Shown here piece by piece: positions 8,192 to 28,438 of a DNA stretch of 29,699 nucleotides. The translations under genes were made by a program, and so were the position numbers. Under the pieces are notes generated by a model. It ran no database searches, was not told where the DNA came from, and worked only from the letters and a program-made list of their open reading frames with translations. The DNA comes from a virus. Location of the stretch: the IMG/VR virus record IMGVR_UViG_3300037140_000135, positions 1 to 29,699 of that record; one strand, 5' to 3'. Within the stretch, counting starts at the first letter, position 1. Each line of letters opens with the position of its first letter.

Positions 8192-11100
8192 TTACTTGGC
8201 ACTCACATTCCACGTCACGGACCCCGGAGTTATGGAGGCTGACGTCGGGTTGACGATGTAGTAGTTGAGTTGCCCGGCAGTCGGCCAGGCGATGAAGTAC
8301 AGGGACCCAGCACCCCACCCAGCCACTCCGGATATGTCGGAGGATGGGCAGATGACAACGGTCGAGGTTGTAAGTAGTCCCGTCATCGTCGCCGTGTAGA
8401 CGGATGACTTGGAGTTCGCGGAAACCGCTGTCGTCGCCGTGGTGATCTGGATGTTGGCGATGCTCGCAGCAGCCGGTCCCGTCGGTCCGGTTGGGCCGGG
8501 CACGGTGCTGGCAGCGCCTGTTGCGCCTGTCGCGCCTGTTGCGCCAGTAGGACCGGTGGCACCGGGAGCCGAAAAGAGCGCCCAGTTGGACCCCACCACG
8601 GGCGTGCTGTAGTTGCTGCCCACGGCGGTGCTGATGTATACGGACCCGTTGTAGCTGACCAGAGCGCCCAGACTGACTGGACCCCCAGCCCATGCCCCAA
8701 CCCATGCGACGTTTGACGCCGCGCCAGTTGGACCCGTCGGTCCGGTGGGGCCGGTAGGTCCGGTCGCGCCGATGCTTGCTACCAGATACCAGGGGTAGCC
8801 GGACGAGGGAAGGGGGCCTAGTGTATTGGCAACGATGCAAACGTAGGACGACCCCAAGTAGCTGACTGCCTGCCCGACCTGATAGTAGGAGCTGATGCTC
8901 CAACCACCCAGCCAGGTCACTCCAACCGGACCGGTAGGCCCAGTCGCGCCCGCTGGCACCGTGAAGTTCAGGATGGCCGCCGTAGACGTTCCCGTGTTGG
9001 TGACGGCTGCGGTGCCGGTGCTGGTGGTGCCGATCGAAACTGTGGCAGAGCCGCTTGTACCTGCCGCGCCGGTTGGCCCGGTGGGTCCCGTCGGGCCGGT
9101 GGCTCCGGTCGTGCCAGCGCCAGTAGCTCCAGTTGGTCCTGTTAGTCCGGTTGGGCCGGTCGGCCCCGTTGCTCCCGTTGCTCCCGCCGTGCCAGCCGTA
9201 CCCGTGGTGCCCTGAGCACCCGTTGCACCTGTTGCTCCAGTGGGGCCAGTTGGGCCTTGCGGCACCGTAAAGTTAAGGATGGCAGCGGTGTCGGTACCTG
9301 AGTTAGTGACGGCGGCTGTGCCTGTGCTCGTCGTGCCGATGGCCACGGTTGCAGAGCCATTGGCTCCGCTGGCACCAGTCGCGCCGGTAGAACCGGTTGG
9401 CCCAGTCGGACCGGCGGCTCCGGTAGCCCCTTGCGCTGCGACGAGCGACCATGCGGTGGGGTAAAGCGCGGGCTGAGCATTGGAGTTGTCACCGATTGCG
9501 ATGTAGGTCGATCCGAGGTAGCTGACCACCTGGTTGGTGTAATAGGCATGGCCGCTGCCTACCCATGCACCCACCCATGTCCCAGCGCCTCCCGCCGGGC
9601 CAGTTGCTCCGGTCGCCCCCGTGCTGCCCGCTGTGCCCGTCGCGCCTGCTGTGCCGGTGGCTCCGGTTGCTCCGGTTGCTCCGGTGGGTCCGGCAACGGT
9701 CGAGGCCGCGCCAGTCGCTCCGGTTGGGCCAGTAGGGCCGGTCACGCCAGTTGGGCCAGTGGCACCGATGTTCCCCGTCGCACCTGTTGCACCTGTTGCT
9801 CCGGCCACACCCGTGGCTCCGGCAGTTCCTGTCGGCCCCGTAGCGCCGGTCGAGCCTTGAGGCCCGGTCGGTCCAGCTACCGTCGATGCTGCACCCGTCG
9901 CGCCAGTGGGGCCGGTGAGGCCGATAGCGCCGGTGGCACCCATTGGTCCAGGTACGGTCGAAGCGGCTCCAGTAGCACCCGTTGCACCGGTTGGCCCAGC
10001 CGGGCCAGTGGCACCCGTCGGGCCAGGAACTGTGGAGGCCGCGCCAGTAGCGCCAGTCGCGCCGGTGGCTCCAGCGACGGTCGCAACCACTGGCGTCCAG
10101 TAGGAGGGGTTGGTGGTCGGCAGCCAACCGGTGTTGGCAGCCACGGCTATGTACAGCGAGCCGCTCGCCATGACGGTGTCGTTAATCGAGTAGGTGTAGG
10201 TGGACGACCAGTTGCCCTTATAGACGGGCACCCAGGCGGTACCTGCTGCACCGGTCGCTCCGGTTGGCCCAGTGGCACCGGTCGTGCCTGCACCTGTGGC
10301 TCCAGCGGGGCCGGTGGGGCCTTGTATGCCCTGAGCGATCTCGACCCAGTAGATGCTGCCCGTATAGGGAGCCTGGGAAATGTTTGCGGCGATGCAGAGC
10401 CAAGATGAGGTCCCGTAGAAGACCGCTTCATTCACAACGTAAGCGACGCCGGAGGTCCACGATCCCTCAAAGACTATGCCTGCCGATGCCGCGCCAGTGG
10501 GGCCTGTGGGGCCTGTAGCTCCGGCTGCCCCGGTGGCACCCGTTGCGCCCTGAAAGGTCAGCATCCAGTACATGCTGGAGTCGAAGGGAGCAGGCTGGGC
10601 CGTGTTTGCAACGACGCAAATCCAGGAGGAGCCAAGGTAGGTGACTCCGTCCCCCGGCACATAAGCGTACGTTGAACTCCAGTCACCGCGCCATGCCATT
10701 CCAATCGGGCCGGTTGCACCCGTGGGGCCGGTGAGGCCTGTGGCTCCCGTCAGACCAATGCCTTCTGGGCCTGTGGGGCCAGCGGAGCCAGTGGGGCCTG
10801 TGCTGCCTACCTGTGCGAGCAGGGACCAGTAGGACGGGTTTGTGGCCGGGGTAAAATTTTGGTTGCTGACGGTGCTGATCCAGGAGGCACCTGCATAGCT
10901 GACACCGGAGCCCACCGGATAGGTGGTGGTCGAGCTCCATGCGCCGGTCCAGGTGATGCCCGCCGGGCCTGTGGCTCCGGTAGAGCCTTGGATGCCCTGC
11001 GGGCCGGTCGGACCGATGGGGCCGGTGACGCCTTGGATACCTTGCGAGCCAGTCGGTCCCGCCGGAATCCCGAAGTTGATGATGGCGGCAGAACTTGTGC

Positions 11101-11773
11101 CTACATTTGTTACAGTTGGGCTTGCTCCGGCAGCAAGCGCGGTCGCTGTGCCTGAGGTGATCGAGATCGAAGGGGTAGCACCAGTTGCGCCTGTTGCGCC
11201 GGTAACTCCCGCCGCCCCCGTTGGGCCAGTCGGGCCAGCGACCGTAGAAGCTGCGCCCGTAGCGCCCGTGGGTCCGGTAGCGCCTGCGGGTCCAGTGGGG
11301 CCGGTGGCTCCCTGGGGTCCCGTCGCACCCGTCGCTCCTGAGCCGCCGGTGCCGGTGCCGCCTGAGCCCACCTGCTGGTAGGTAACCATAGTGCCCAGAT
11401 TCGGAGCGGCGCTGTCGAAGTCGAAGGTGGCTCCCGTCGGCTGGATGGTGTAGCCCGGGCCAAGGATGTTTTCGCCAGTCAGTGGGTCGATGATCGAGAC
11501 GGCGTACCCGATGTTGATCGGGTCGGTCAGCGAGACGTCGGGAAGCTGTGGAGCGATGCCCGTGTAGTCGGCAACCATGACGCCATCGACGACGGGAAAT
11601 GAGATTGGCCGCGTGACCATCTGACCGCTGCCATTCACACGAAAACTGATCGGCGTGTTGGTCAACGTGCTGACAGCCTGGAACTCGATCTCACCGACGC
11701 TGAGAAGCTGGCCGAGGAGCGATCCATAGATGTTCGAAGCCGTGATTAAAGTGAAGCCTGTTGCTGCGGGCAT
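8192..11773 (-). CDS. Collagen-like tail fibre with repeated carbohydrate-binding-like modules
   Basis: The 1193-residue product has an N-terminal attachment domain of about 130 residues, then long Gly-X-Y tracts ([17 protein letters not shown] and variants) expected to form collagen-like triple helices. Seven modules of about 50 residues interrupt the tracts between about residues 270 and 1070. Each has the pattern W-x-G-x-W-S-S-x-x-x-Y, then a Val/Gly-rich strand with Y-x-G-S-S-W/Y-I, and W at the end, like carbohydrate-binding module family 5/12. Three more modules read [21 protein letters not shown] or similar. The C-terminal 90 residues are a distinct cap. The ATG at 11773 has AGGAG 6 bases before it. 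The product should bind host surface glycans. It lies after the tape measure gene rather than after the tail tip gene. Confidence 0.88.
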
Positions 11774-23493: not shown

Positions 23494-23988
23494 CTATTCG
23501 TCTTCTGCACCGAGGTCGGCCATGAACTCCACGAACGGATCAACGGCTGCGGCCTCGCCCAGATTGATTCGCGATCGCGATGATGGATCGAAGCCGAACA
23601 GAGAAGATGCTCGCAACATACCGGTCATCGCTTCCTTCGCGATCGAGGTGGCCGGGTGACGCTTGACCTTGTGGCCTACAACGACGCCCGCGACGATGAT
23701 GGGTTCCTTCCAGGTCTGGCCGTCGGCGGTGATGATCTCTTCTGCGCTGCGCCAACGCGCATACGACTGGCAGTAGGCGGAGAGTGCGGCGGTGTCGACG
23801 CTGCGGAGCATGTCGAGTGCGGCGAGATCCTTGACGACCCTGCGCCACTCGGCTTTCGCGGTCGAGGTCAACCAGACTGGGCACTTCGGCGTGCCTGTGA
23901 ACTTGGGTTCGCTTTTATTGAGTGCCCGCTTACCTGGGTTTCCTCGCAGGGTCTTGATGGCAGTCGGAAGTGGAGGCGGTCCGGGCAT
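23494..23988 (-). CDS. terS: Terminase small subunit, P27 family
   Basis: I start at the ATG at 23988; the open frame runs to 24219 but that part overlaps the oppositely oriented Rap1a-like gene. The 164-residue product begins PGPPPLPTAIKTLRGNPGKR (P-x-x-L-K-x-L-x-G-N-P-G-K-R), the signature of P27-type small terminases. It continues with a helical domain (TAKAEWRRVVKDLAALDML) and AALSAYCQSYARWRSAEE, also typical. It recognises phage DNA and loads the large subunit. The ribosome-binding site is not evident, and the start lies only 43 bp from the divergent Rap1a-like gene, so its own promoter would have to overlap that gene. Confidence 0.9.
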   Translation of the reverse strand: MPGPPPLPTAIKTLRGNPGKRALNKSEPKFTGTPKCPVWLTSTAKAEWRRVVKDLAALDMLRSVDTAALSAYCQSYARWRSAEEIITADGQTWKEPIIVAGVVVGHKVKRHPATSIAKEAMTGMLRASSLFGFDPSSRSRINLGEAAAVDPFVEFMADLGAEDE

Positions 23989-24031
23989 ATTGTTTGTGAT
24001 ACGGTTTCGTGATTCTGGTATCGTTACGGGC

Positions 24032-24433
24032 ATGATCCCCTTGGTGGTATTAGCCGCTGCACTCATGCAAACGCCGACGAGCATAGACCCCGAAGACAGA
24101 GGATCTAATCTGTACGAATCATGCAAGGCAGGTCTAAGGCCGATGGATGGGACAAGCTCGGTGCCGATGACAGACATGGCCCAAGGGAGAGTTTGCCAGG
24201 CATTCATATCGGGCTTCATTAAAGGTCTTCAATATGCGAAGGACGATCCGGTCTGTGCAGACGCAGCTTCCGTGGGAACGTTGATGCGCGTGTACGTTCT
24301 CTATATGGAGCAAAATCCAGAGAAGATGGACGAGCCGAAAGAGTACGGTCTTACCTCGGCGCTCACGAGTAGGTATGCTTGCCCGAGCTATATCAAATCG
24401 ATCACCAAGCAGCCGAAACCGAGCAAGAAGTAG
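24032..24433 (+). CDS. Rap1a/Tai-like immunity-family protein (probable moron)
   Basis: This 133-residue gene is the only convincing plus-strand gene in the late region. A short signal peptide (MIPLVVLAAALMQTPTS) precedes a domain with four cysteines (31, 55, 75, 117), the block RVCQAFISGFIKGLQYA and, further on, VGTLMRVYVLYMEQNPEKM and LTSALTSRYAC. The order C...C-x-x-(F/Y)-x-x-G, then a helix with V-x-x-Y-x-x-x-x-P-E-x-x, then L-x-x-A-L-x-x-x-(Y/F)-(A/P)-C fits the Rap1a/Tai family, periplasmic proteins that neutralise type VI secretion effectors. A TGGTATCGT extended -10 lies upstream. Base composition is visibly less GC-rich than its neighbours. A hairpin follows. The family call is from memory of motifs; the role in a phage is inferred. 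Confidence 0.75.
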   Translation: MIPLVVLAAALMQTPTSIDPEDRGSNLYESCKAGLRPMDGTSSVPMTDMAQGRVCQAFISGFIKGLQYAKDDPVCADAASVGTLMRVYVLYMEQNPEKMDEPKEYGLTSALTSRYACPSYIKSITKQPKPSKK

Positions 24434-24520: not shown

Positions 24521-24540
24521 CTACCCCTACGGGGTGGTAG
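24521..24540. terminator. Hairpin between convergent genes
   Basis: An inverted repeat with arms CTACCCC and GGGGTGGTAG (7 bp with one bulge, or 5 bp ACCCC/GGGGT with a 3-base loop) lies where the Rap1a-like gene and the HNH gene converge and overlaps the HNH stop. It may end transcription from both sides; no T-run is present. A weaker stem CGGGC/GCCCG lies at 24457-24477. Confidence 0.45.
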
Positions 24541-24907
24541 TTGTAACCAAGGGAGTTACGCTTTGGTGCTCACCGCGCTCAGTCTCGATGGCGTGACACG
24601 GGCGGCAGACGCTGAGCAAGTTGTCGATGTCGAGGCGTAGATCCGGTCGAAGAACGATGCTGAGAATGTGGTGAACATCAAGCGCGGGAGTTGCGCGTCC
24701 GGCCTTGAGGCATATCTGGCAGAGATAGCAGTCCCGCTTGAGGGCTTGAATCCGGATGCGCTTCCAGGCGGCATCATATCCACGGCTGGAGCTCGACCCC
24801 TTGTAACGGACCGGATCGGTGCTGACCCCATGGTCAGGACAATACCGGTCGGCGCTGAGTGCTGGGCAGCCTTGGTGCAGGCACGGGCTGGGTGCGGCGA
24901 AGGGCAT
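24527..24907 (-). CDS. HNH endonuclease (packaging-associated)
   Basis: The 126-residue product has an N-terminal zinc-finger-like cluster (C9, C14, C23, H26), then the HNH domain: CYLCQIC (Cys60/63/66), LDVHHI with His79-His80, NLLSVCRPCH with Cys101, Cys104 and His105. The first HNH histidine is in the DVHH pair and the Asn is in DIDNLL. Small HNH proteins next to terminase genes help terminases cut concatemeric DNA at genome ends in cos-type siphophages such as HK97 (gp74). The position directly ahead of terS (with the Rap1a-like gene in between) fits. ATG at 24907; the ribosome-binding site is weak. Confidence 0.85.
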   Translation of the reverse strand: MPFAAPSPCLHQGCPALSADRYCPDHGVSTDPVRYKGSSSSRGYDAAWKRIRIQALKRDCYLCQICLKAGRATPALDVHHILSIVLRPDLRLDIDNLLSVCRPCHAIETERGEHQSVTPLVTTTTP

Positions 24908-25064: not shown

Positions 25065-25298
25065 TTACTTTTGCGGAAGGTGATCCATGACGGTGACTGG
25101 ATGTCCGCCCCATCGCCAGCTTGCGACAATGGCGACTGCAGCGTCATGGGCCGGGTGATTCTCCTCCACGAAGGCGTCCATGATGTCCTGGTCGGATGGG
25201 CGAAGACTCGGGCAGCCAGCGGTCTGCTGGGCGCGTGTACGGCGGTCAGCTTTGATGGCGTTGACGACGTTGGCAAGGGTCGAACGGGCTAGGCTCAT
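25065..25298 (-). CDS. Hypothetical protein, 77 residues
   Basis: I do not recognise this protein. It begins MSLARSTLANVVNAIKADRR, continues with PSDQDIMDAFVEENHPAHDA and ends WRWGGHPVTVMDHLPQK. It looks soluble and mostly helical. The start is well supported: AGGAGG lies 6 bases before the ATG at 25298, and the ATG overlaps the TGA of the upstream gene (ATGA). It is the second gene of a leftward pair just inside the control region, so it may be an early gene or the head of the late transcript. Another open frame on the same strand here (25031-25276) lacks such a site. Confidence 0.65.
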   Translation of the reverse strand: MSLARSTLANVVNAIKADRRTRAQQTAGCPSLRPSDQDIMDAFVEENHPAHDAAVAIVASWRWGGHPVTVMDHLPQK

Positions 25299-25501
25299 CG
25301 TGTGCCTCCTGCGACGTGATCGTGCATGTCGGCGATGGCGGCGAGGATCAGATCAGCGGCGAGCTCCAATTTGTTGAACCTGGAGCGTATCTCGATGAGG
25401 ATGTCGGAGACGGGCGGCTGGGCGGGTGCTGGGAACTCAACGGTCTGAGTCGCGCCGGTGAGCAATGAGACTAGGAGGGCGGATGGCTGGATCGGGAGCA
25501 T
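25295..25501 (-). CDS. Hypothetical protein, 68 residues
   Basis: The 68-residue product reads MLPIQPSALLVSLLTG, a Pro/Ala-rich linker (EFPAPAQPPVSD), then a helical region ILIEIRSRFNKLELAADLIL and DMHDHVAGGTR. No family is recognised. It is the first leftward gene after the control region, with a directional element (25514-25535) 12 bp before its ATG, and its TGA overlaps the next ATG. The helical C-terminal half could mediate oligomerisation. This would be the first gene of the leftward transcript, whose promoter must lie in 25.5-25.7 kb. Confidence 0.6.
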   Translation of the reverse strand: MLPIQPSALLVSLLTGATQTVEFPAPAQPPVSDILIEIRSRFNKLELAADLILAAIADMHDHVAGGTR

Positions 25502-25513
25502 TGGTTTGTACCT

Positions 25514-25535
25514 CTGATAGAGGCATCCGGTAGTT
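25514..25535 (-). repeat. 22-bp directional intergenic element, copy 9
   Basis: On the minus strand: AACT (first base diverged), ACCGGATGCC, TCTATCAG. It lies 12 bp before the ATG of the first leftward gene and contains a CCTCT/AGAGG inverted repeat at its 3' edge. Confidence 0.6.
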
Positions 25536-25537
25536 CA

Positions 25538-25563
25538 TTAATCTGATCACGTCGATTAAATCG
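25538..25563. promoter_or_regulatory. Operator-like palindromes at the left of the control region
   Basis: A perfect inverted repeat TTAATC/GATTAA (25538-25543, 25554-25559; 10-base centre) overlaps a second palindrome CGATT-A-AATCG (25553-25563). They lie just upstream of the first leftward gene, where a leftward promoter is expected (ATTAAT could be a -10), so repressor binding is plausible. Confidence 0.45.
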
Positions 25564-25603
25564 TCTTGGTGACGTTGCCGGGTCCAGCATCACGGGAGGC
25601 CAT

Positions 25604-25619
25604 GACAGTAATAACTGTC
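25604..25619. promoter_or_regulatory. 16-bp palindrome GACAGT-AATA-ACTGTC
   Basis: A perfect 6-bp inverted repeat with a 4-base centre, operator-like, about 60 bp before the first TGACATG copy. With the preceding T it starts TGACA, the same five bases as the array unit, so one protein might read both. Confidence 0.5.
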
Positions 25620-25681
25620 GCGGAAGGCGGGATCAGGTAATGGGGCTGGGGAGTGTGTTGCAGGAGGCCTGGTCCGAAAAT

Positions 25682-26090
25682 CATGTCACTTTCGGTAAAC
25701 ATGTCAGAGGCGTCCTCTTAAAGTGACATGGGCGTAACTAACTCATACCACATGTGTTACCAAAAACACGTCAAAAACATGTCACCCCATGTCAGTAGGG
25801 TGACATGGTACCTAACCGATCTGGATTCAGTACCTTACTACTAAAAAATATGTGTATGTATGTGTACAGGAGATTTTAAATAGGTTTTTGAGTTTACACA
25901 CATATATAGGGGGGTGACATGTTTACATGTTGCTGATTCTTATAGAGCCCCCTGACATGACCATGTCATCCGTCATCCCCCGAACCTCCCTCCTCTTCTT
26001 GTTATCAATAACATAGCCGCCCGCGCCCTCTCGCCCCTTGACATGATCCAGTGACATGCCCCTGACATGCACCCCTCGCCCCTTGACATG
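25682..26090. repeat. Array of 13 TGACATG / CATGTCA copies
   Basis: Exact 7-mers begin at 25682, 25700, 25778, 25788 and 25962 (as CATGTCA) and 25724, 25801, 25915, 25953, 26039, 26052, 26063 and 26084 (as TGACATG), with a one-base variant at 25767. Both orientations and spacings of 9-24 bases occur within clusters. The last cluster includes a 16-bp direct repeat CTCGCCCCTTGACATG (26030-26045, 26075-26090). The first and third copies form an 11-bp inverted repeat (CATGTCACTTT/AAAGTGACATG). No convincing gene covers the array. It lies between divergent transcription units beside replication genes: iterons of an origin, or an operator field. Confidence 0.85.
25848..25905. other. AT-rich segment with inverted repeat between array clusters
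   Basis: The stretch between the left and right TGACATG clusters is strikingly AT-rich for this genome. It carries ATATGTGT (25848-25855) and its complement ACACATAT (25898-25905), plus a second TATGTGTA in between. This would suit a DNA-unwinding element of an origin, or a divergent promoter region. Confidence 0.45.
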
Positions 26091-26266
26091 CCCTCCCGCA
26101 GCTTCTCCTTCACCTCCTCCGGCTCCAGGCCACCTCTACTACTCCACACCCTCATAGTCAAAAAACGCGGTTCTCTATCACATTGCGATAAAGATTGTCA
26201 ATAATAATTCGACGAGGGGTGTAACTTTTTTACGCCCTCCACATCTTAGAAGTATGAGGTAACAAA
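26091..26266 (+). promoter_or_regulatory. Probable rightward promoter/operator region
   Basis: No gene seen. Close to the start of the winged-helix gene lies an imperfect palindrome TATCAC-ATT-GCGATA (26176-26190) followed by AT-rich TAATAATAAT. A TTGCGA could be a -35 with TAATTC as a -10 at 16-base spacing; the match is weak. GAGG stands 7 bases before the ATG at 26267. Confidence 0.4.
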
Positions 26267-26818
26267 ATGACCGCCGTAGCCCAGACCGCCCCCAAGAAGC
26301 TGACCGCCGTGGCCCGACTCATGCTCCGAGTCCTGGCTTCCAACCTCGACCGTCCGCGCACGCTGCTGGAGATCGAGCGCCTGACCCCATGCTCACACGC
26401 CAGCGCCAGCATCCTCACTCGACGGCTTGAGTCGGCGGGACTACTGAAAAGTTTTGCTCCGGAATTTGGAGTCCCCCGGACGTACACCATCGCCTCCGTC
26501 AGCCTGCTCACCAGTCCGACGTCACCCCTGCACGACGAGCCCCTGGCCACGCTCCTCCGCGACCTGGAGCCCACCGTCACCAAGCCCCTCACCTGGGCCG
26601 AGGTCCACTCGACCCTCCTCGCCCTCGTCGGCAGCGAGCCCGTCACGGAGGGGGAGCTTATCCTCCAAAGTGGCCTCGCCCCCGCCATCGTCACCGACTG
26701 GTTGTTCGCCGCTGGAGCAAATAGGCAGATCGCCACCGAGTGCCGCGAGCTCACCGCCGAAGAGACCTTCAACAGCCCTCTGGGCGTGAACGCCCTGAAA
26801 ACCTACACCCTCATCTAA
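26267..26818 (+). CDS. Winged-helix DNA-binding protein
   Basis: The 183-residue product has an N-terminal winged-helix domain (about 12-76): a helix ARLMLRVLASNLDRP, then TLLEIERLTPCSHASASIL (helix-turn-helix) and LTRRLESAGLLKSF followed by a Gly-Val-Pro-Arg wing and TYTI strand, much like MarR/MngR-type DNA-binding folds. A second, similar winged-helix-like segment may follow (TWAEVHSTLLALVGSEPVTE to VTDWLFAAGANRQI). It is the first rightward gene beside the TGACATG array, so it is the best candidate to bind it, either as a repressor/activator or replication initiator. ATG at 26267 has GAGG 7 bases upstream. The DNA-binding fold is well supported; the target is inference. Confidence 0.7.
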   Translation: MTAVAQTAPKKLTAVARLMLRVLASNLDRPRTLLEIERLTPCSHASASILTRRLESAGLLKSFAPEFGVPRTYTIASVSLLTSPTSPLHDEPLATLLRDLEPTVTKPLTWAEVHSTLLALVGSEPVTEGELILQSGLAPAIVTDWLFAAGANRQIATECRELTAEETFNSPLGVNALKTYTLI

Positions 26819-26983: not shown

Positions 26984-28438
26984 ATGGCAACCGTCGAACA
27001 AGTCGAAGACATCTGTGACCTCGGCCCCTCCACCGTCCCGGTCATCTCGGACGCATGGGAGCCACCTTCCCCTGAGCCTCTCCCGCCCCCCTTTGTCCAG
27101 CCGGTCACAGAGTACGACATGGATTGGAGTTGTGGGTATGGTGCTTTAGCCGACGCCGCACGCACCCTCCACGAGCCGCCAGGCCTCTCCTACTCCGTCA
27201 TGCTCGCGCTATACAGCTCGCAGGGCATTCCCGATGACAGCAGGGCCAACTTGACCACCCGCTCCACGGTGTACGTCGTCATCGCCGCTGGCACCGGCGT
27301 CGGCAAATCCCGCGTCATGGACAAGGGGCTCCGCACCTTGCGCGGCAGCAACGGTATGTTGCTCCGCGACGACCCCCGCCGCGTCAAGCGCTTCACGGCG
27401 AGCTCCGCCCCCGGACTGCAAGACCGGTTGGTCCTGGAGGTCCCCGAGGGCCAGAAGCCTATAATCGACGCCTTCGGTCGCCCAGGGCTCCCCAACAACT
27501 GCCTCCTGCACCTCAACGAGCTGAACGGCCTGCTCAACAACTTGAAAATCCAGAACTCGAACTTGCCCGACATGCTCACGGATTTGTGGGACGGCAACTA
27601 CGTCTCCACCGGCACCGGCAAGCAGCAGCGCAATACCAACGCACACATCTCGATCATGGGAGCGGTGCCTTGCCGGACGCCAACAGAGTTCGGCCTTAAG
27701 TTTCAAGCAGCCACAATGGGTGGGCTTTTTGACAGGCTCATCGTCGTGCCCCAAACCCGGAAGTGGAGCTTCTCCTCCAACTGGCAGCCCACGCCCGTCA
27801 CCATCACGCCCTGGGAGTCCACGCTCCCACCGGAGGCGCTGGCCGCCGTCGATAAGTGGAGTGCACAGATGGAGGCTGCAATCCTCCTGAGTGATCCTGA
27901 CTCCGATGTAGTAGCTCTGCTCCCCCGGCTCAGTGAAAATGCACGGAGGGTGGCGCTCCTCAGCGCAAGTGCCAATCATGAGTCAGTAGTTTCAGACGCC
28001 TGCATCCAGGCCGCGCTCAGGTTCGCCACCTGGCAACTTAAGGTCAAGGGGGACTGGGCTGGTACCGGCGCGGAGAACCCGATCGCCGCCGCCGAGGACA
28101 TCCTCACCAAGGCGTTTAAAAGGATTGAGGCCCGCGACATCGAGAAGATGGGGCCTGAGTCCGGGAAGGACCGGTACTACGCCTACAACTACCTCATGTC
28201 GTCGCTTAACTTACAGCGCACCCATCGAAACATCGGTTCCGGGATCTTCCGCTCGGCCTGGGACTCGATGACCTCCCTGGGCGTACTGCAGGAGGAGCCC
28301 CAGGAGGAGGAGAAGCAGCAGACCGACGGATCGTTCCAGATCGTCCCAGTCCCGGGAAAATTCACGAAGCGCCGCCGCCTCTATCGCTCCACATTTAATT
28401 CCACGGTCAGCTCGCAACTGGTGGCCGACGATGAATAA
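26984..28438 (+). CDS. DUF3987-like P-loop ATPase, probable replicative helicase
   Basis: The 484-residue product has Walker A GTGVGKS (103-109) and a Walker B-like CLLHLNE (173-179), the Asn replacing the usual Asp before Glu. After a Pro-rich N-terminal region (25-40) comes an Arg-rich patch (RDDPRRVKRFTASSAPGL), then QRNTNAHISIMGAVP with GGLFDRLIVVPQ, a Thr-Asn-x-x-x-x-x-x-G sensor-1-like strand and an arginine-finger-like F-D-R. This order matches DUF3987-type phage ATPases, commonly paired with primases and proposed to act as helicase or loader. The C-terminus is a helix-rich wing (KDRYYAYNYLMSSL). It overlaps the primase start by 8 bases, so both are made together. Confidence 0.75.
   Translation: MATVEQVEDICDLGPSTVPVISDAWEPPSPEPLPPPFVQPVTEYDMDWSCGYGALADAARTLHEPPGLSYSVMLALYSSQGIPDDSRANLTTRSTVYVVIAAGTGVGKSRVMDKGLRTLRGSNGMLLRDDPRRVKRFTASSAPGLQDRLVLEVPEGQKPIIDAFGRPGLPNNCLLHLNELNGLLNNLKIQNSNLPDMLTDLWDGNYVSTGTGKQQRNTNAHISIMGAVPCRTPTEFGLKFQAATMGGLFDRLIVVPQTRKWSFSSNWQPTPVTITPWESTLPPEALAAVDKWSAQMEAAILLSDPDSDVVALLPRLSENARRVALLSASANHESVVSDACIQAALRFATWQLKVKGDWAGTGAENPIAAAEDILTKAFKRIEARDIEKMGPESGKDRYYAYNYLMSSLNLQRTHRNIGSGIFRSAWDSMTSLGVLQEEPQEEEKQQTDGSFQIVPVPGKFTKRRRLYRSTFNSTVSSQLVADDE

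Follow-up and report, generated by a model that had tools for sequence, protein, structure and literature searches.

A candidate multi-site replication origin built from TGACATG heptamers in an uncultivated tailed phage

Introduction

Replication origins are commonly made up of multiple initiator sites placed next to an AT-rich unwinding element (PMC5043065). In lambda ori, with its O-protein sites, and in other phage origins embedded in initiator genes, arrays of sites and an AT-rich unwinding element lie at the replication genes, and in lambda-type origins the array is inside the gene of a winged-helix-type initiator. The iteron origins of plasmids such as RK2, P1 and F, which use Rep_3 initiators, likewise combine repeated sites, an AT-rich element and an adjacent winged-helix gene, their iterons being mostly direct and helically phased (PMC5043065). 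In some phages a short asymmetric site is also repeated many times as stoperators, which in L5-type mycobacteriophages are dispersed over the genome (PMC9283540). The locus described here shares two features with iteron origins, i.e., many near-identical short sites in one place and an AT-rich region at the array, and its repeated word, TGACATG, is unusual and has so far no assignment. The first-pass annotation of this DNA, made from its letters alone, could not assign the heptamer to any known initiator or repressor, and our literature search, which found TGACATG as a word in a single, unrelated paper only, agrees with that statement.

The heptamer array

The window analysed is the whole stretch of IMG/VR record IMGVR_UViG_3300037140_000135, 29,699 nucleotides in length. 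Thirteen exact copies of TGACATG lie at 25682-26090, eight on the plus and five on the minus strand. The left cluster (25682-25807) holds six sites, four on the minus and two on the plus strand (25682-, 25700-, 25724+, 25778-, 25788- and 25801+), the middle cluster (25915-25968) holds three (25915+, 25953+ and 25962-), of which the last two form an inverted pair at 25953-25968 (TGACATGACCATGTCA), and the right cluster (26039-26090) consists of four direct copies (26039+, 26052+, 26063+ and 26084+) with spacings of 13, 11 and 21. Over the rest of the 29,699 bases the heptamer occurs only at 6674- and 21910-, each time within a late gene, which is the chance level.

The first-pass annotation had held that 13 copies in about 410 bp lie far above chance and that an equal density elsewhere would speak against any special role. 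Both the count and the comparison bear it out, with 32 sites per kb in the array vs 0.07 per kb in the rest of the record, and with 15 sites in the full record vs 4.3 +/- 1.9 in whole-record shuffles, of which 0/100 reached 15. Under a first-order Markov model, the 760-bp intergenic region is expected to hold 0.19 copies (maximum 3 in 2000 runs), the top count for any 7-mer across 300 Markov simulations of this region was 6, and the Poisson probability of the array is ~6e-20. TGACATG is the most clustered 7-mer in the record, the runner-up being CCGGAGC with 8. Copies with one mismatch number only 3 in 25400-26400 vs ~2.6 expected by chance, and no conserved bases flank the heptamer among the array copies; since conservation does not extend outside the heptamer, the repeat measures exactly 7 bp and is no remnant of a longer one that has decayed.

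The successive spacings (18, 24, 54, 10, 13, 114, 38, 9, 77, 13, 11 and 21) show no helical phasing (Rayleigh R 0.38 at 10.5 bp), and the sites are not mostly direct, the right cluster alone being uniform in orientation. Around the AT-rich core, 4/6 left sites are on the minus strand and 6/7 right sites on the plus strand, a polarity that is only suggestive at these numbers.

The core itself (25808-25914), a candidate DNA unwinding element, separates the left and middle clusters. As the first-pass annotation had noticed, the clusters flank an AT-rich stretch, and this stretch proves to be the extreme of the record, as the lowest-GC 40-, 60- and 100-bp segments all fall between these two clusters, the 60-bp one at 25835-25894 with 25% GC vs a record mean of 61%. 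A second AT-rich stretch, at 26150-26230 just upstream of the gene for P0001, contains the second-lowest 60- and 100-bp segments and a weak promoter-like match, and another promoter-like match, at 25707-25680, overlaps heptamers. A high AT content would equally be expected at promoters. The intergenic region holds no long ORF on either strand, the array region holds no DnaA boxes at one mismatch or fewer, and Rfam and tRNA scans gave no matches. GC skew flips sign at the array (25300-26500), being positive leftward and negative rightward; as this switch tracks the divergent gene direction, it was left out of the origin evidence.

Gene neighbourhood and relatives

The array is intergenic and lies between divergent operons, late genes running leftward and replication genes rightward, an arrangement that the first-pass annotation had read correctly. 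The late operon starts with two small overlapping ORFs (25295-25501 and 25065-25298, minus strand) with no family match above threshold and continues with an HNH endonuclease gene (24527-24907, minus strand; PHROG 144), the small terminase gene (TerS; 23494-24219, minus strand; PHROG 83), TerL, portal, protease, capsid (Phage_capsid), tail genes and an endolysin. The endolysin is a glycoside hydrolase 108, which presumably hints at a Gram-negative host; no host assignment was obtained from TerS neighbours in GTDB genomes. In the tail region, a 1193-aa protein (8192-11773, minus strand) carries a dozen collagen-repeat and six CBM_5_12 carbohydrate-binding stretches and is probably a tail or host-attachment protein.

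On the rightward side, the first gene encodes P0001 (183 aa; 26267-26818, plus strand), probably a tandem winged-helix protein and a candidate initiator or array-binding protein. Its winged-helix matches are sub-threshold (Pfam MarR_2 at 13-61 and DprA_WH at 105-143), NCBIfam, PHROG and PDB searches gave no match, and an AlphaFold run without alignment was uninformative (pLDDT 38). P0002 (484 aa; 26984-28438, plus strand) is a DUF3987-like P-loop ATPase, with a Pfam score of 26.7 bits at a cut-off of 27, and is probably the replicative helicase. P0003 (28431-29699, plus strand), of at least 423 aa and truncated by the record end, is apparently an archaeo-eukaryotic-type primase/polymerase, judging by motifs read by eye, i.e., VDVD, SGNGHH and a C-terminal Cys/His cluster; tblastn returned remote matches to a DNA polymerase from a phage and to proteins of archaeal plasmids, and a Pfam search gave no match.

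Relatives of the three proteins were sought in different subsets of IMG/VR, GTDB genomes, phages and plasmids, and no independent relative of the array together with the P0001-P0003 module was found in the collections searched. What was recovered comprises a 100% identical fragment (L009/L011/L091), one P0002 relative at 25% (L010, with DUF3987 at 58 bits), which has no comparable TGACATG array, and remote primase matches. The L091 contig carries the same 7,326 bp, including the array, at 100% identity; this argues against an assembly artefact and, coming from the same phage, is silent on conservation. Contig L012 resembles the record in TerS (64% protein identity) and in TerL DNA (69%), and TGACATG is absent from it over 7.4 kb, including 1.8 kb upstream of TerS.

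TGACATG arrays in other viruses

IMG/VR was searched for heptamer triplets alone, in direct and mixed orientation and with gene content ignored. Among the matches listed, direct triplets were mostly in-frame Asp-Asp-Met codon repeats, and direct-orientation arrays of this kind were set aside as peptide repeats. Such in-frame runs (e.g., L112, L134 and L185) encode Asp-Asp-Met in large ORFs and are a trap for naive heptamer searches. Hand grouping of the mixed triplets and the remaining direct ones among the matches listed left ~30 distinct arrays other than simple peptide repeats. Six of these, in unrelated phages, lie inside replication-initiator or replisome-organiser ORFs (L150, L160/L188, L116, L202, L280 and L304), and in all but L202 the spacing is largely not a multiple of three and both orientations are present, so these repeats act as DNA and not as peptide repeats. 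Another five among the matches listed adjoin replicative helicase or primase genes, namely DUF3987 with an NrS-1-like primase-polymerase (L298), D5 (L158), VapE (L110), DnaB-N (L166/L300), and AAA_25 and helicase (L274). The L298 array is ~1.7 kb from its DUF3987/NrS-1-like primase-polymerase protein, whose helicase family is that of P0002 and which is 38-44% identical to primase/helicase proteins from several cultured phages. Three arrays among the matches listed lie beside terminase genes (L262, L272 and L266), and many of the remaining ones have no annotated neighbour.

In L110, L158 and L290, an AT-rich core has a pair or triple of heptamers on either flank. The array of L290, a 72.7-kb viral contig, comprises nine ATGACATG sites in mixed orientation around such a core (1928-2163), and its neighbours are genes without assigned function. 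Arrays of TGACATGTCGGGATGC- or TGACATGTCAAAGACT-type units with a ~16-bp period were seen in L276 (5307-5425), L277 (2058-2164) and L141 (11-113), contigs of 56-60% GC.

The reversed heptamer GTACAGT served as a control, and in the same mixed geometry it gave 35 stretches vs 30 for TGACATG, with a similar spread of cluster sizes after allowing for peptide repeats. This comparison gives no support to the notion that arrays of TGACATG are more frequent than those of other words, and since the control is about as frequent, TGACATG is not singled out as a special origin word. Among the seven GTACAGT families with scanned neighbours, none falls within an ORF recognised as an initiator, and one is near a helicase; the gap to TGACATG in replication-gene placement is in the expected direction and too small for significance, and the two sets were unequally scanned. 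What the survey does indicate is that replication genes are a frequent location of such arrays; it is no proof that TGACATG is special. GTACAGT arrays in mixed orientation round AT-rich DNA also occur in the unrelated phages L324 (884-1273), L310 (2593-2819) and L331 (4786-5011), the last two in similar gene contexts and that of L310 near a head maturation protease.

A probable origin and its alternatives

We consider the array at 25682-26090 to be probably a multi-site replication origin of this tailed phage. This reading is favoured by the replication-gene neighbours, by the location of the record's most AT-rich stretch within the array and by the TGACATG arrays in or beside replication genes of unrelated phages. 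An initiator, most likely the neighbouring winged-helix protein P0001, would bind the heptamers cooperatively; the sites flanking the AT-rich core would keep it in a nucleoprotein complex and aid its melting, after which the DUF3987-like helicase P0002 and the primase P0003 would be loaded and copying would proceed outwards. Because the array sits between divergent operons, binding of the initiator probably also controls the early promoter of the initiator's own operon. The first-pass annotation had offered an iteron-type origin or a multi-site operator; its origin is the choice we favour, and the label iteron-type is only partly right, the orientation being mixed and the spacing irregular. 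Several observations count against an origin: no independent relative with the module turned up in the collections searched, the distant DUF3987 relative lacks the array, control arrays are similar in number, short arrays of mixed orientation are no rarity among phages, three TGACATG arrays lie at terminase genes, the sites are not all direct or phased, and P0001 has no confident family match.

The main rival, which we judge unlikely, is a multi-site operator through which P0001, or a repressor encoded beyond the record end, would switch divergent early and late promoters without any role in replication. An operator would share all features of an origin except strand opening and can coexist with one, and it suits the location of the array exactly between divergent operons, the similarity of P0001 to MarR-type winged-helix domains and the overlap of the promoter-like match at 25707-25680 with heptamers. 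However, 13 sites over 409 bp are many for a single divergent promoter pair, there is no excess of sites elsewhere in the record, unlike the genome-wide stoperators of mycobacteriophages (PMC9283540), and the mixed TGACATG arrays within the initiator genes of other phages are not divergent-operon promoters. No integrase or repressor was recognised among the scanned ORFs of the record, which is incomplete, being cut on the replication side. It is improbable that the array serves instead for partition, as the centromere of a plasmid-like prophage to which a ParB-like protein, encoded past the record end, would bind. The parS loci of extrachromosomal prophages are also short-repeat arrays near replication genes, as in Miko and Rachaly, with five direct repeats downstream of repA (PMC7157519), but neither ParA nor ParB was found among the proteins scanned, and an origin explains the AT-rich core better.

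A packaging (cos/pac) site, at which the small terminase would recognise the heptamers, is suggested by the starts of the TerS and HNH genes within ~1.5 kb of the array, by the HNH protein gp74, which boosts cos cleavage in HK97 (PMC11331095), and by the arrays that adjoin terminase genes in three other viruses. We nevertheless hold it to be very improbable, because no heptamer stands in the 7.4 kb of L012, which has a related TerS, even if TerS specificity could have drifted, and because HK97 TerS requires one 15-bp site and no array (PMC11331095); the other fetched TerS-family viral loci also have no three or more TGACATG within 500 bp. As for a chance or peptide-repeat artefact, Asp-Asp-Met-type codon repeats do account for the majority of direct-orientation TGACATG arrays among the viral matches listed, but the array of this record is intergenic, of mixed orientation and of non-triplet spacing, and chance is refuted by the site counts, so that such an artefact has next to no probability.

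The origin reading offers an origin that can be tested, together with a candidate initiator, for a phage replication module to which no close relative turned up in the searched collections. The module comprises a winged-helix protein, a DUF3987-like helicase and what appears to be a primase; the feature itself is of an ordinary kind. If the heptamer is an initiator site, TGACATG could flag origins in several other uncultivated phages. The broader proposal that TGACATG is a common initiator site in unrelated phages, reached by convergence or exchange and served by different winged-helix initiators and helicases (DUF3987, D5, VapE or DnaB-type), appears doubtful.

Comparison with known systems

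A winged-helix-type initiator is suspected in this phage as in lambda-type origins, but the array lies upstream of the candidate initiator gene and not inside it. The iterons of lambda are longer inverted repeats (PMC5043065), whereas the asymmetric repeat described here spans 7 bp and occurs in both orientations, and the helicase and primase types differ from those of the lambda O/P system. Unlike the dispersed L5-type stoperators, the heptamers are confined to one intergenic region. In L290, L158, L110 and L298, too, TGACATG copies of both orientations surround AT-rich DNA, and the arrays of the last three lie beside D5, VapE or DUF3987 replication genes; no P0001 homologue was found in these four contigs, and the inner heptamers of L158, L110 and L290 point towards the AT-rich core from either side, whereas in this phage most point away. 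Plasmid iteron origins depend on Rep initiators, and P0001, with its sub-threshold winged-helix matches, gave no match to a Rep family in the searches made. The mixed orientation and irregular, unphased spacing place the array outside the classical iteron family, yet it may work like one.
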